From the NCBI GenBank assembly GCA_016874055.1, contig VGVG01000002.1, positions 106,186-170,185 on the forward strand: a DNA stretch of 64,000 nt, in the 5' to 3' direction. The stretch is from Gammaproteobacteria bacterium (GTDB taxonomy: Bacteria; Pseudomonadota; Gammaproteobacteria; Steroidobacterales; Steroidobacteraceae). Of this stretch, positions 42,828 to 63,838 are shown in pieces. The notes beneath the pieces were generated by a model. That model searched no databases and had not been told where the DNA came from. It worked only from the letters and a program-made list of their open reading frames with translations. The translations under genes and the position numbers were made by a program. Numbering within the stretch: the stretch's first letter is position 1; the number at the start of each line of letters is the position of its first letter.

Positions 42828-47518
<4,691 letters not shown>

Positions 47519-47532
47519 TCAATCCAGTGGGT

Positions 47533-48480
47533 TTAGCCGTGAACAGACGCCGGCTGCAACGACGCCGCAGGCTCGCTCGACCGAGCCCCGAGCACACAAC
47601 CGCGGGCGACGAGCACGTGATGACCCTCGGCTTCAACGGGCGCGATGGATAAACAGTCGATACCGCACTCGGCGAGCAGCGAGCGTAAATGCAGCGGTGG
47701 CGAAACCTGTCCTTCGAGCAGGTCGTACGAAATTACGCACCAGAGTACGCCTGAATCACTGAGGTGAGCGCGCGCGCGCTGCAAAAGGACTGGAAGTTGA
47801 TCAAGTTCGCGGACTTCGCCTTGCGTCGGTGCTTCGAGACAAACATCAAACATCCCGCCGGCACGCAGTTCGCCGCTCGTCAAAACCTCGGCTTGAAACC
47901 CCTCGGCCCCGAGCCAGGACTGCAAAACATTTTTTTCGGGTTTAGACGTCGCGCGAAGGGTAACGCGATGTGCGCCGCGCTGATCATCCTTCAGTAACGC
48001 CTCAAGAACCTCGCGATGCTGACTGCGCACGAGCACGCTCGCTCCAGCTATATCGCGACAAAACTCGCCTCCAAGAGCGCCTCGTAGACTGCGTCCAAGG
48101 CGACTAGTGACTACCCAATCGGCCGCTGAGCCACGCAGGCTCCCGCGAGCACCGGCCTCGATGGCATGAAGACGAGCCCTCGCCTCACGCAGTGGTGCGT
48201 CGTCTACGGCAAGTCGAGACAACAGCAAGCCAAGAAGGTCCGCCGAGAAATCGAACCCCGAAACCGGCTGGTATTCGACGCGCTGCCCTCGTCGAACGCG
48301 ACGCAGCAGCCCCGCCTCGGCGAGCTGCTTCAAATGACGAGAGACGTTCGGCTCGCTGTCGGAGGTGGCCGCTGCGAGTTCCGAAACGCTGGTCAGTCGA
48401 TCTGCGCAGAGCCGAAGCAGCCGCAGTCGCGCCACGTCTGCGACGGCACGCAAAATCCGCGACATTATTTCGGCGTTCAC
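47533..48480 (-). CDS. ArsR-family regulator with C-terminal methyltransferase-like domain (SahR-like candidate)
   Basis: Residues about 1-90 are an ArsR winged helix (ILRAVADVARLRLLRLCADRLTSVSELA then SEPNVSRHLKQLAEAGLLRRVRRGQRVEYQ). The rest (about 110-300) resembles a class I methyltransferase fold but lacks a GxGxG SAM motif, showing only VLVRSQHREV in that place, so it may sense a methyl-cycle metabolite rather than catalyse. ArsR-type SahR is known to regulate SAM-cycle genes including metF and metH in proteobacteria, which makes that role plausible. The track start is TTG 48501; GTG 48480 or ATG 48465 fit the promoter better. Confidence 0.8.
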   Translation of the reverse strand: MNAEIMSRILRAVADVARLRLLRLCADRLTSVSELAAATSDSEPNVSRHLKQLAEAGLLRRVRRGQRVEYQPVSGFDFSADLLGLLLSRLAVDDAPLREARARLHAIEAGARGSLRGSAADWVVTSRLGRSLRGALGGEFCRDIAGASVLVRSQHREVLEALLKDDQRGAHRVTLRATSKPEKNVLQSWLGAEGFQAEVLTSGELRAGGMFDVCLEAPTQGEVRELDQLPVLLQRARAHLSDSGVLWCVISYDLLEGQVSPPLHLRSLLAECGIDCLSIAPVEAEGHHVLVARGCVLGARSSEPAASLQPASVHG

Positions 48481-48485
48481 TGGAA

Positions 48486-48539
48486 TTTCAGGATTTCGCA
48501 ATCCGGAAACATTATACCCCGTAGACTGCCAGAAGTAAA
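48486..48539 (-). promoter_or_regulatory. Promoter and inverted-repeat operator of the regulator-metF-metH operon
   Basis: On the minus strand, TTTACT (48534-48539) and a perfect TATAAT (48511-48516) are 17 bp apart. Just downstream, at 48486-48509, TTTCaGGATT and AATCCgGAAA form an inverted repeat with 9 of 10 matching positions and a TCGC spacer. A repressor bound there would sit over the transcription start. The natural candidate is the ArsR-type protein encoded next. Confidence 0.6.
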
Positions 48540-48542
48540 AAC

Positions 48543-48571
48543 GTTACATTTGAAACTGTTTCAAATGTAAT
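48543..48571 (+). promoter_or_regulatory. Palindromic operator embedding the hpd operon promoter
   Basis: TTACATTTGAAAC and its exact complement GTTTCAAATGTAA flank a single T at 48544-48570. The same bases supply a -35 GTTACA (48543-48548) and a -10 TGTAAT (48566-48571) with 17 bp between them. A protein filling the palindrome would block polymerase. The likely binder is the MarR-family protein encoded at the end of the operon, although the divergent ArsR-type protein cannot be excluded. Confidence 0.65.
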
Positions 48572-48585
48572 TAAAGGATTCATCA

Positions 48586-49668
48586 ATGGCTGAGGACGTG
48601 AGGGAGCCCCGCGCCAATCCTATGGGGCTCGACGGCTTCGAATTCGTCGAGTTCGCCTCCCCAAACTCCGCCTTGCTGGAACCGGTGTTCAAGCAGCTTG
48701 GGTTCGAGGCGGTGGCGCATCACCGCTCGAAAGATGTGACGCTTTACCGACAAGGCGGCATCAACTTTATCGTCAACCGCGAGAAGCGCAGCCAAGCCGG
48801 CTATTTCGCCAATGAGCACGGTCCCGGCGCCTGCGGTATCGCGTTCCGCGTCCGTAATGCGCAGAAGGCCTACGCCCGAGCGCTAGAGCTCGGTGCCCAA
48901 CCTGTCGATCTGCCGACCGGACCTATGGAGCTCCGTCTCCCCGCCATTCGGGCCATCGGCGGCGCGGCGCTCTACCTCATCGATCGCTACGTCGACGGTG
49001 CGAGCATTTACGATACCGACTTCGAATGGTTGCCGAACGTCGGGCGCCGTCCCGCCGGCGTCGGCCTGCAACTCATCGATCACCTGACGCATAACGTTTA
49101 TCACGGTCGTATGGCGCACTGGGCTACGTTCTACGAGCGAACGTTCAATTTCCGCGAAATCCGTCACTTCGACATCCACGGGCAGCACACGGGACTGCGG
49201 TCGCGCGCCTTGACGGCGCCCGACGATAAGATTCGCATTCCGCTCAATGAAGAGGGCGGTCAGGGTGGTGGACAGATCGAGGAGTACCTGCTCCGCTTTA
49301 ATGGCGAGGGCGTTCAGCACATCGCTCTGTCGACGACGGACTTATGCGCCACGGTCGATGACTTGCGGAAGCGCGGTGTCCCGCTCATGCCCGCACCGTC
49401 CGAGACCTACTACGAAATGCTGGACGGTCGGCTGCCCGGCCACGACGAGCCCACGGCAGCGCTACAGCAACGCGGTATCCTGCTCGATGGTACGACGAGC
49501 GGCGAACGTAAGCTCCTACTGCAGATTTTTTCGGAGTGCCTCATCGGGCCCATGTTCTTCGAGTTCATTCAACGCAAGGGCGACGAGGGCTTCGGCGAAG
49601 GTAATTTCAAAGCGCTGTTCGAATCGCTCGAGCGTGATCAGATGCGACGTGGGGCACTCAAGAGATGA
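48586..49668 (+). CDS. hpd: 4-hydroxyphenylpyruvate dioxygenase
   Basis: Converts 4-hydroxyphenylpyruvate to homogentisate with Fe(II). The two VOC-type halves are visible. The C-terminal half carries the metal ligands in [21 protein letters not shown] and [10 protein letters not shown], with [15 protein letters not shown] at the end. Length 360 is typical of bacterial HPPD. It is the first gene of a coupled set (overlaps the VOC gene by four bases) controlled by the palindrome upstream. Confidence 0.96.
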
Positions 49669-51220: not shown

Positions 51221-51248
51221 TCGCAAACTTGACAGCGATTCGCCTCTC

Positions 51249-51707
51249 ATGAGGGATACGCCGCATCTGCAACTCGATCGCTTCCTGCCCTACCGTTTGT
51301 CGGTGCTAAGCAATCTCGTAAGCTCCGCCATCGCTGGAAGCTACTCCTCTCGTTTCGGCATCAGCATCCCGGAGTGGCGCGTCATGGCCGTGCTCGCTAT
51401 GCAGCCGGAGCTCTCCGCTGCCCAAGTTGCCAAGCGCACAGCAATGGACAAGGTCGCCGTCAGCCGCGCCGTCTCGAGTCTGCTCGACAAAGGTCGTATC
51501 GAGCGTAACGTGTCCCCGGGCGACCGACGACGATCGATTCTCAAACTTTCCGCAGAGGGAATAAGTATTTATCGCGAGGTTGTGCCCCTTGCCTTGCATC
51601 ACGAACAATCCTTAATCAAAGTACTCAATGCTGCCGACCGCGAGGCACTCGAACGCATTCTCGATATCCTGCTTGGGCGTGCACGAACGCTTGGCGATCA
51701 CTCTTAA
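51249..51707 (+). CDS. MarR-family transcriptional regulator
   Basis: The track opens at 51150, but the MarR protein starts at MRDTPHLQLDRFLPYRLSV from the ATG at 51249 (152 residues). The winged helix is SAAQVAKRTAMDKVAVSRAVSSLLDKGRIERN with the wing SPGDRRRSILKLSAEG. C-terminal helices provide dimerisation. It lies 28 bp after fah. An autoregulatory repressor of the hpd operon acting at the 27-bp palindrome is the simplest reading; the ligand might be homogentisate or 4-hydroxyphenylpyruvate. Confidence 0.88.
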   Translation: MRDTPHLQLDRFLPYRLSVLSNLVSSAIAGSYSSRFGISIPEWRVMAVLAMQPELSAAQVAKRTAMDKVAVSRAVSSLLDKGRIERNVSPGDRRRSILKLSAEGISIYREVVPLALHHEQSLIKVLNAADREALERILDILLGRARTLGDHS

Positions 51708-61689: not shown

Positions 61690-63741
61690 TCAGCGTACCT
61701 GCCAGACCGCCGAGACGCCGACGGCGCGCGGATCGGCTAGCTGAACGTAGAGTTTATCGGGGTAATCCGGCGGTTCATTACCAAAGAAAAATCCCCTCAT
61801 GGCGTAGCGCGCATTTAAAGCATTACGCATCCAGGTATCGACTCGCCAGTGTCCCGCATCAAAACCCGCACGCACATTGACGATTGAATACGGTGCAGAA
61901 CGCTGGTCGTGACTATCACTGAAGTAGAACGCTGCCACCCGTTGTGCGTCCAGTCGCGCGAACCAACCCGAGGGCTTACGGTAGTCGAGTGACATCGACA
62001 CTTGAAAGCTTGGCGCATGCGCTTGGTCACGACCCGCAAGATCGTCACCCACGGCGATGTAATCCCGAAATACAGCGCGCAACCCGCCAACGGTCGCACC
62101 TATTGACCAAGCTTCCGACAGTCTTGCAAAGATCGAACCTTCCAGCCCGTAGTTGACACCGCGTGCTGCATTATCGGTGAGATAGATGAATGAAAGTGGA
62201 TCACCTGGATCGAGCTGCGCAGACGTATTCACCTGCTGTGCGGTACGCCTCATGTAAAAGATCGCAAGGTCGTACCGAAGCCCGCGTATTGCATCGTCGA
62301 ACTTGTAGCCAAGCTCGAGGCTGTGCAGGAACTCGGCGTCAAATTCCCGGCGATCGGTCGGTACAACTGAGCCGAGGTTGAAGCCCCCTGCCTTGTAGCC
62401 CCGCGCGAACGCCAGATAAGCCATGCGCTGTCGATCCGGACGGTATTCGATCGAGGCGTTACCACCCAGCATGCTTTCAGCCGGCGATAGATCGCTGCCA
62501 TCGGTATCACGATAGCTTGCATCGCGTCGCTCAATACGCAAGCCGAAGTTCGTACGCCACGCGTCACTTAATGAATATCCCATACTGGCGTAACCCGCGA
62601 ACGATCTCGCCTCGTAATGACTGACGAGCACTCGATACACCTCGCCTCCGTAGAGATCGAGTTGATCGTTATCCTCCGTCAAGCGCTGCGCATAAATCCC
62701 CGCCACAAGATCAACCGCCCTCGTCTTCCTAGACCAACGCAGATCCTGCGATAAGCTTTGCCGGTCCCGAAGAAACCGAGATGTAAAGTCGTAAGAAGGA
62801 TCAGCCGCCCAATCACCGTCGAAAGAGTAGACAATGTCGGCGTCAACCACGGCGGTGAGATTTTTGAACTCGAAATCGCCGCCGTCATAATGCAGCACCA
62901 TAGAGGCACCGCGCGAATGTTGGCTGTCGCGACCCGGATCATCCGAGCGCGTCCTTCGCGAATTGTCCGTTGAGAAAGCGTCGAAGCCGTTATCGAGATC
63001 TACCGCGAGCAGCGATAGATCCGCTTTCCATCGGGTGTTTAGTTCATGCCAACTACGAAAGCGTAGCGTTCGCTCATCGAGACCATTGGTATCGTCACGG
63101 TCCAGCGTCACGTTACGACGCGACCCATTACTGCGAAAACCTTGGGCGACCAATCGGAAAGCCGAATCTCCTCCCTCGGCGAACGGACCACCCACCACGA
63201 GTCCCACCGACGTTACACCAAGATTACCCGTACCAATCTCGACGCGAAGCGTCTCATCAGGGGTGGGTATACGCGTGCGTAGGTTGATGAGTCCTGCCAG
63301 CGCATTGGCGCCGAGTGAAGTGCTCTGAGGTCCGCGAAGCACTTCGGCCTGTTCGAGATCGACGAGCGTCGCCGGCATGCCTATCCCCGAGAAATCCATG
63401 CCATCAATCAAAAATCCCACCGACGGATTAGGCGCACCTTGCCACTGATCGTTCTCGCCGATCCCTCGCAGCTGGAAGTATCGCGGTCGGGATGTACCTG
63501 CAGCCCAGTTGAGGTTAGGGATGAGCGGGAGCACGTCTTGCAGGTGTTGTACGCCCGCCTCTCGGAGCGTGCTCGAGTCGATGACTGTCGCACTCGCTGC
63601 CACGTTCAGCGCCGTCTGCGGACGTAGCGTGGCCGTAATGACAACCTCTTCCAATTCGGTTTTCGCTTCGGTTTTCGCTGTGGCGCCAACCGTTGACACG
63701 GCCACGATTACAGAAAAAAACACTCGTAAATCAAACATCAC
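61690..63741 (-). CDS. TonB-dependent outer-membrane receptor, thiamin-regulated
   Basis: 683 residues. A signal peptide (VFFSVIVAVSTVGATAKTEA) is followed by a TonB box (LEEVVITATLR), the plug domain (LNVAASATVIDSS then LRGPQSTSLGANALAGLINL) and a 22-strand-type barrel ending with DPRAVGVSAVWQVR, a terminal aromatic/hydrophobic strand. It is directly preceded by a TPP riboswitch, so its substrate is probably thiamin or a derivative. Start ATG 63741 has the GGAGGGAG Shine-Dalgarno that forms the 3' edge of the riboswitch. Confidence 0.9.
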   Translation of the reverse strand: MMFDLRVFFSVIVAVSTVGATAKTEAKTELEEVVITATLRPQTALNVAASATVIDSSTLREAGVQHLQDVLPLIPNLNWAAGTSRPRYFQLRGIGENDQWQGAPNPSVGFLIDGMDFSGIGMPATLVDLEQAEVLRGPQSTSLGANALAGLINLRTRIPTPDETLRVEIGTGNLGVTSVGLVVGGPFAEGGDSAFRLVAQGFRSNGSRRNVTLDRDDTNGLDERTLRFRSWHELNTRWKADLSLLAVDLDNGFDAFSTDNSRRTRSDDPGRDSQHSRGASMVLHYDGGDFEFKNLTAVVDADIVYSFDGDWAADPSYDFTSRFLRDRQSLSQDLRWSRKTRAVDLVAGIYAQRLTEDNDQLDLYGGEVYRVLVSHYEARSFAGYASMGYSLSDAWRTNFGLRIERRDASYRDTDGSDLSPAESMLGGNASIEYRPDRQRMAYLAFARGYKAGGFNLGSVVPTDRREFDAEFLHSLELGYKFDDAIRGLRYDLAIFYMRRTAQQVNTSAQLDPGDPLSFIYLTDNAARGVNYGLEGSIFARLSEAWSIGATVGGLRAVFRDYIAVGDDLAGRDQAHAPSFQVSMSLDYRKPSGWFARLDAQRVAAFYFSDSHDQRSAPYSIVNVRAGFDAGHWRVDTWMRNALNARYAMRGFFFGNEPPDYPDKLYVQLADPRAVGVSAVWQVR

Positions 63742-63743
63742 CT

Positions 63744-63838
63744 GCTCCCTCCGCCGGTACTAACCGGATCAGGTTCAACGGGTTCACCGCAGACTGCGGC
63801 ATCTCAGGCCCTTCCGGACCACCCCACGGTCTCCCACA
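63744..63838 (-). promoter_or_regulatory. TPP (THI-box) riboswitch
   Basis: On the minus strand just upstream of the receptor gene the conserved TPP aptamer blocks appear in order: GUGGGGUG, then GGCCUGAGAUGCC (thi-box CUGAGA core), then CCGUUGAACCUGAUCCGG followed by GUUAGUACCGGCG and GGAGGGAGCAGG. The Shine-Dalgarno GGAGGGAG lies at the 3' edge of the aptamer. Ligand binding would hide it and lower translation of the receptor, permease and kinase when thiamin diphosphate is plentiful. Exact ends are approximate. Confidence 0.9.

Follow-up and report, generated by a model that had tools for sequence, protein, structure and literature searches.

A SahR-derived regulator ahead of metF-metH with a dismantled S-adenosyl pocket in one Steroidobacteraceae clade, probably re-purposed for another ligand

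What does a regulator of the methionine cycle sense once its sensor domain has lost the motifs that hold S-adenosyl compounds? The question is raised by a gene in the window, the whole stretch of 64,000 nucleotides analyzed here, which comes from a small metagenome-assembled genome (1.39 Mb, 84% complete). Among named relatives, Steroidobacteraceae and unclassified Gammaproteobacteria bins are the closest to this genome. Regulators with a methyltransferase fold are known sensors of S-adenosylhomocysteine (SAH). Novichkov et al. are said to have found in 2014 that SahR responds to SAH and that its effector domain is akin to SAM-dependent methylases. In the published accounts, SahR is a repressor of SAM-cycle genes from the ArsR family that responds to SAH (PMC4239095, PMC8877191), and SAH is named as its effector (PMC8877191). 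We propose that the window protein is probably a SahR-derived autorepressor of metF-metH whose sensor was re-purposed for a ligand other than SAH.

The regulator, its unit and its sensor domain

The regulator is an ArsR/SmtB-type transcription factor with a winged-helix domain above the curated cut-off: it matches Pfam HTH_5 (E=2.9e-10; 40.3 bits, cut-off 22), HTH_20 (E=1.7e-10), and NCBIfam HTH_metalloreg (57.8 bits, cut-off 55). The good DNA-binding domain claimed for it from the sequence alone is thus borne out, as is its place at the head of a unit with metF and metH, which come next (Table 1). The regulator stop codon lies 29 bp from the metF start, metF and metH overlap by 4 bp, and more than 60 relatives share the order regulator-metF-metH. 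Two start codons are available for the regulator; its N-terminus LRNPEI resembles, in the alignment with relatives, the MLRNNEI of L006 and L075, and this likeness argues for translation from about 48501. In members of the window's genus (L064-L080), the regulator ATG stands only about 5-10 nt past the −10 box, which suggests that the transcript of this genus is leaderless. In the window (48499-48516), this ATG is replaced by GGA, and the TTG, the codon after GGA, may serve as the start.

Table 1 Features of the regulator-metF-metH unit in the window
Feature	Coordinates	Strand	Basis
Regulator ORF	47533..48501 (TTG start, 322 aa) or 47533..48480 (GTG start, 315 aa)	minus	ORF call
ArsR-type winged-helix DNA-binding domain, recognition helix SEPNVSRHLKQL	48265..48453	minus	Pfam, NCBIfam, recognition-helix table
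Sensor domain with a degenerate class-I methyltransferase fold (residues 126-296 in the 315-aa form)	47593..48105	minus	AlphaFold2, Foldseek, clade alignment
SVLVRSQHREVL, where the SAM glycine loop has been lost, with near-invariant H155-x-E157	48004..48045	minus	alignment against canonical LLDIGTGTGRML
Predicted operator TTTCCGGATTGCGAAATCCTGAAA, 9-of-10 repeat, in register of the clade's 24-bp palindrome	48486..48509	minus	motif search
−10 box (TATAAT) for regulator-metF-metH, lying 1 bp before the operator	48511..48516	minus	sequence
metF (methylenetetrahydrofolate reductase)	46631..47503	minus	NF006950, 410 bits (cut-off 382)
metH (B12-dependent methionine synthase)	42828..46634	minus	NF007024, 2144 bits

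The C-terminal domain had been read as methyltransferase-like but without a GxGxG loop, and both halves of that description hold. Aligned with canonical relatives, the window protein has SVLVRSQHREVL where they have the loop LLDIGTGTGRML, and LRAT where they have the acidic motif GVDI. The hallmarks of an active SAM-dependent methyltransferase, a GxGxG loop and an acidic residue after strand 2, are absent from the window protein and from its clade. No Pfam methyltransferase model matches the C-terminal domain of the window protein, and at E up to 0.5 none matches more than 3 of 13 members of the degenerate clade, while all 14 canonical relatives examined have a match at E up to 0.001. Searched by sequence against solved structures, the degenerate domain gave chance-level matches only. 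The fold itself is supported by structure prediction. An AlphaFold2 model built on an alignment of 64 relatives (mean pLDDT 91) comprises a winged helix and a class-I methyltransferase fold, its strands and helices following the order of that class. SAM-dependent methyltransferases give the top Foldseek matches, with E as low as 2.3e-10; the best solved ones are winged-helix O-methyltransferases and related proteins, many of which contain SAM or SAH. The global TM-scores, at 0.32-0.46, are low, probably an effect of differently oriented domains.

The sequence-only reading had regarded the protein as a longer version of SahR. Its kinship with SahR stands and its length is unremarkable: a long SahR is normal, since the sahR of Ensifer aridi measures 1023 bp (about 340 aa; PMC8877191). 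Canonical long relatives with a methyltransferase domain are the rule before metF-metH in the order and common in the class, so neither the long SahR nor its canonical relatives at this site are new.

Clade-wide loss and new conservation

Every member read of a single Steroidobacteraceae clade of dozens of species, which we call degenerate, lacks the acidic GVD motif as well as the GxGxG loop. Elsewhere in the order (L017-L033), and in several genera within the family (L181-L193, L032), the forms are canonical and have both motifs. In the sequences read, the motif loss is therefore a property of the clade, not a local decay. Genus g67 (L176-L180) is intermediate, with LLYFGRDPDELM and GMNP or VLYAGPAPAEML and GVSE at the loop and the acidic motif, respectively; its SAM motifs are half-decayed, yet its recognition helix and operator are still canonical. 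Trees, which took in the lost-motif columns as well as the HTH columns and were built without the experimentally studied SahR proteins, nest the degenerate clade within the g67 intermediates and these within the canonical forms. The degenerate clade is monophyletic (support 100/100), and its stem measures 1.2 changes per column. This nesting with intermediates, together with the conserved unit, points to common descent with the long HTH-methyltransferase proteins of the SahR type that precede metF-metH. With SahR, the regulator shares the architecture of an HTH and a methyltransferase fold, the length, the place before metF-metH and a palindromic operator at its own promoter, and the canonical members of the order form sister and ancestral groups to its clade. 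Unlike SahR, it lacks the glycine loop and the acidic motif and has acquired new near-invariant residues, the fold being kept.

The altered domain has not been released from selection. For pairs within the window's genus, dN/dS of the degenerate sensor domain is 0.06-0.16, against 0.08-0.12 for the HTH; the domain is under purifying selection, with a constraint close to that of the HTH. Across 72 degenerate sequences, the near-invariant positions are S-R-L-G-R 126-130 (R127 97%, R130 97%), H155 (96%), E157 (86%), W247, Y252 (99%), P261, R266 (100%), P281 (100%), E283 (89%), and H288 (97%). H155 and E157 occupy the former SAM loop. In the predicted secondary structure, positions 155-157, 252, and 283-288 come after strands 1, 5, and 6, respectively, and 126-130 opens the helix preceding strand 1. 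Class-I methyltransferases bind their ligand at the loops that follow the strands, the ligand edge of the fold. From this topology, the new near-invariant residues would sit mainly at the ligand edge.

This pattern bears on whether the domain still senses anything. It could be a structural or dimerization scaffold of a ligand-independent autorepressor that fixes the level of metF-metH, as the kept fold core, the vanished ancestral ligand motifs and a target range down to one self-controlled unit would allow; a scaffold would have no need of R127, R130, H155, E157, Y252, E283, and H288, however, and these lie mainly at the predicted ligand edge, which leaves this explanation unlikely.

Operator, recognition helix and target range

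A 9-of-10 inverted repeat just downstream of the TATAAT had drawn attention to this promoter. The repeat is present and lies on the clade's operator, but it does not exceed chance on its own: repeats with 10-nt arms, a 4-nt gap and 9/10 pairing number 6 in the window against 3.6 expected, and we rejected the idea that it is significant by itself. It becomes meaningful because a palindrome-constrained motif search over 73 upstream regions of degenerate relatives places a 24-bp site, TTAAAGAN-TTGTGCAA-NTCTTNAA, in the same register. The search picked the window's TTTCCGGATTGCGAAATCCTGAAA in the clade register and equally far from the gene; for 33 canonical upstream regions, it returned a 20-bp type, ATATAAAGATATCTTTATAT. 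Conservation of the repeat upstream of orthologs, which the sequence-only reading had made its test, thus holds for position and register across the 73 relatives and fails for the letters, which differ even at 80% protein identity. Within the window's genus, the operator resembles TTGCAATG-TTGAGCAA-CTCTACAA and in most cases extends over the first codons, and part of its conservation may be coding because of this overlap with N-terminal codons; in L077, L079, and L081, the ATG is gone at the operator and the site is still kept. The mean palindrome score in the genus is only 6.8/12, and no half-site covariation beyond the consensus was detected there (p=0.73).

In the recognition helix, canonical proteins and g67 have SQPR, most of the degenerate clade has SEPR, and the window's genus has SEPN. 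The operator types follow it: ATATAAAGAT with SQPR, TTAAAGA with SEPR, and TTGCAATG with SEPN. Helix and operator thus appear to have changed together, from SQPR to SEPR to SEPN. In place of the 20-bp site and SQPR helix of the canonical type, the degenerate regulator has a 24-bp operator of other sequence and a SEPN or SEPR helix.

A 24-bp palindrome and metH neighbors are also described for SamR of Xanthomonadales, a distant SahR homolog whose effector is unknown (PMC4239095). The degenerate regulator might on these grounds be taken for SamR or its ortholog. We recognized SamR-like proteins in the class set by context (L261-L269). They retain the motif VLDIASGDG, carry another recognition helix, LAQPRVSTHLARL, and mostly adjoin the N-terminal piece of a split metH; in L261-L263, an ATC-N10-GAT palindrome lies next to the start codon. 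The degenerate regulator thus resembles SamR as a distant SahR relative with a 24-bp palindrome and methionine synthase neighbors, and differs from the SamR-like set in helix, operator and neighbors. A tree joining the two groups was rejected (AU p=0.0125). The degenerate regulator forms a separate clade, and its identity with SamR is highly improbable.

The 20-bp SahR sites lie before SAM-cycle genes, ahcY and metK among them, whereas the degenerate regulator has, in the genomes scanned, a site only at its own unit. The SEPR-class pattern found a site in 20 of 25 genomes, one place in each and directly before the regulator; the reversed control pattern gave 2 chance matches. The window-type pattern has one match in its own genome, before the regulator. 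No operator was found before ahcY or metK, the upstream region of metK being covered by the genome-wide pattern scans only. This agrees with the view, already put forward from the sequence, that the regulator would act on its own metF-metH unit. The exact TTTCCGGATTGCGAAATCCTGAAA was also tried as a regulon-wide motif and rejected, as it has a single site in the genome. In canonical genomes of the order, too, a search allowing 3 mismatches gave no more than one site per genome. This led us to reject a scenario in which ahcY is controlled by the canonical relatives and escaped control in the degenerate ones; the restriction to metF-metH predates the change of the domain, which does not account for it.

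The SAH riboswitch and the probable ligand

A search for the operator before ahcY had been suggested from the sequence. In the regulator's own genome, ahcY carries a SAH riboswitch instead (RF01057; 51.5 bits, cut-off 37), and none was found in the metF-metH leader of the window. In a sample of the order, the riboswitch was present in 13/13 genomes with a degenerate regulator and in 3/3 canonical genomes of the same family; elsewhere in the order, it was found in 7 of about 83 canonical genomes, a genome being counted as canonical on a match to the canonical-domain profile below 1e-20. A family-wide scan found it in 155 of 217 genomes with all regulator types and missed it in about ten genomes with a degenerate regulator, most of them incomplete. 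Because the riboswitch is a family-wide trait, its association with degeneration is confounded by ancestry, and it is probably older than the domain change. It may have made SAH sensing by the regulator dispensable; shared ancestry fits the association as well. Like the regulator, it acts on the same cycle in the same genome, at the SAH end; unlike the regulator, it is RNA and sits on a separate transcript.

The sequence-only reading had suggested that the degenerate domain senses SAH. A SAH or SAM sensor working through an altered pocket would be in keeping with the response of known SahR and with the retained fold and unit. All members read have lost the glycine loop and the acidic motif, however, which relatives in the order keep, and ahcY is under a separate SAH riboswitch. 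As the residues defining S-adenosyl binding are gone clade-wide, SAH is an improbable ligand, and we regard this explanation as very doubtful. Because the parts that hold the S-adenosyl moiety are lost, new residues are invariant and the DNA site is different, the degenerate regulator probably senses something else.

The mechanism that we favor would run as follows. A dimeric ArsR-type repressor would bind one 24-bp palindrome overlapping its own transcript start and would control the regulator-metF-metH unit only. Its C-terminal domain descends from the SAH-binding methyltransferase domain of SahR. In one branch inside Steroidobacteraceae, the domain lost the S-adenosyl-binding loop and acidic motif, and charged and aromatic residues, new and near-invariant, would have rebuilt its pocket edge. 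The domain most likely still acts as an allosteric sensor that frees the operator, for another small molecule of methionine or one-carbon metabolism; our guess is an amino-acid-like effector, for example, homocysteine or methionine. SAH itself is handled by the riboswitch on ahcY. The broader reading, about as likely as not, is that a SAM-binding sensor was re-purposed stepwise, with living intermediates, for another methionine or one-carbon metabolite while its DNA specificity and single operator were rewritten together.

New here is the SahR-type pocket dismantled in one Steroidobacteraceae clade; its anatomy is firmly established, and its function we infer. Our search found no literature on such a SahR clade, subscription papers lying mostly outside it, nor on degenerate methyltransferase regulators or methionine regulators in Steroidobacteraceae. 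A clade whose SAH pocket is dismantled and whose domain is strongly selected makes ligand and operator switching traceable in a small single-target repressor, as canonical, intermediate and changed forms are all found in living relatives, with g67 as a natural intermediate. It yields a direct prediction for ligand screens and bears on what SahR-like proteins such as SamR sense.

The window holds further candidate regulatory elements. An operon for 4-hydroxyphenylpyruvate dioxygenase (HPPD) starts at 48586, divergent from the regulator. Between the two lies a 27-bp palindrome, TTACATTTGAAACTGTTTCAAATGTAA (48544-48570), perfect around its central base. Genus members that have the HPPD operon carry related elements, and in those that lack it none was seen. 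The palindrome is probably the operator of the HPPD operon, and a MarR-type gene at 51237-51707 perhaps acts at it. A TPP riboswitch (66.9 bits) lies at 63728-63836 on the minus strand.
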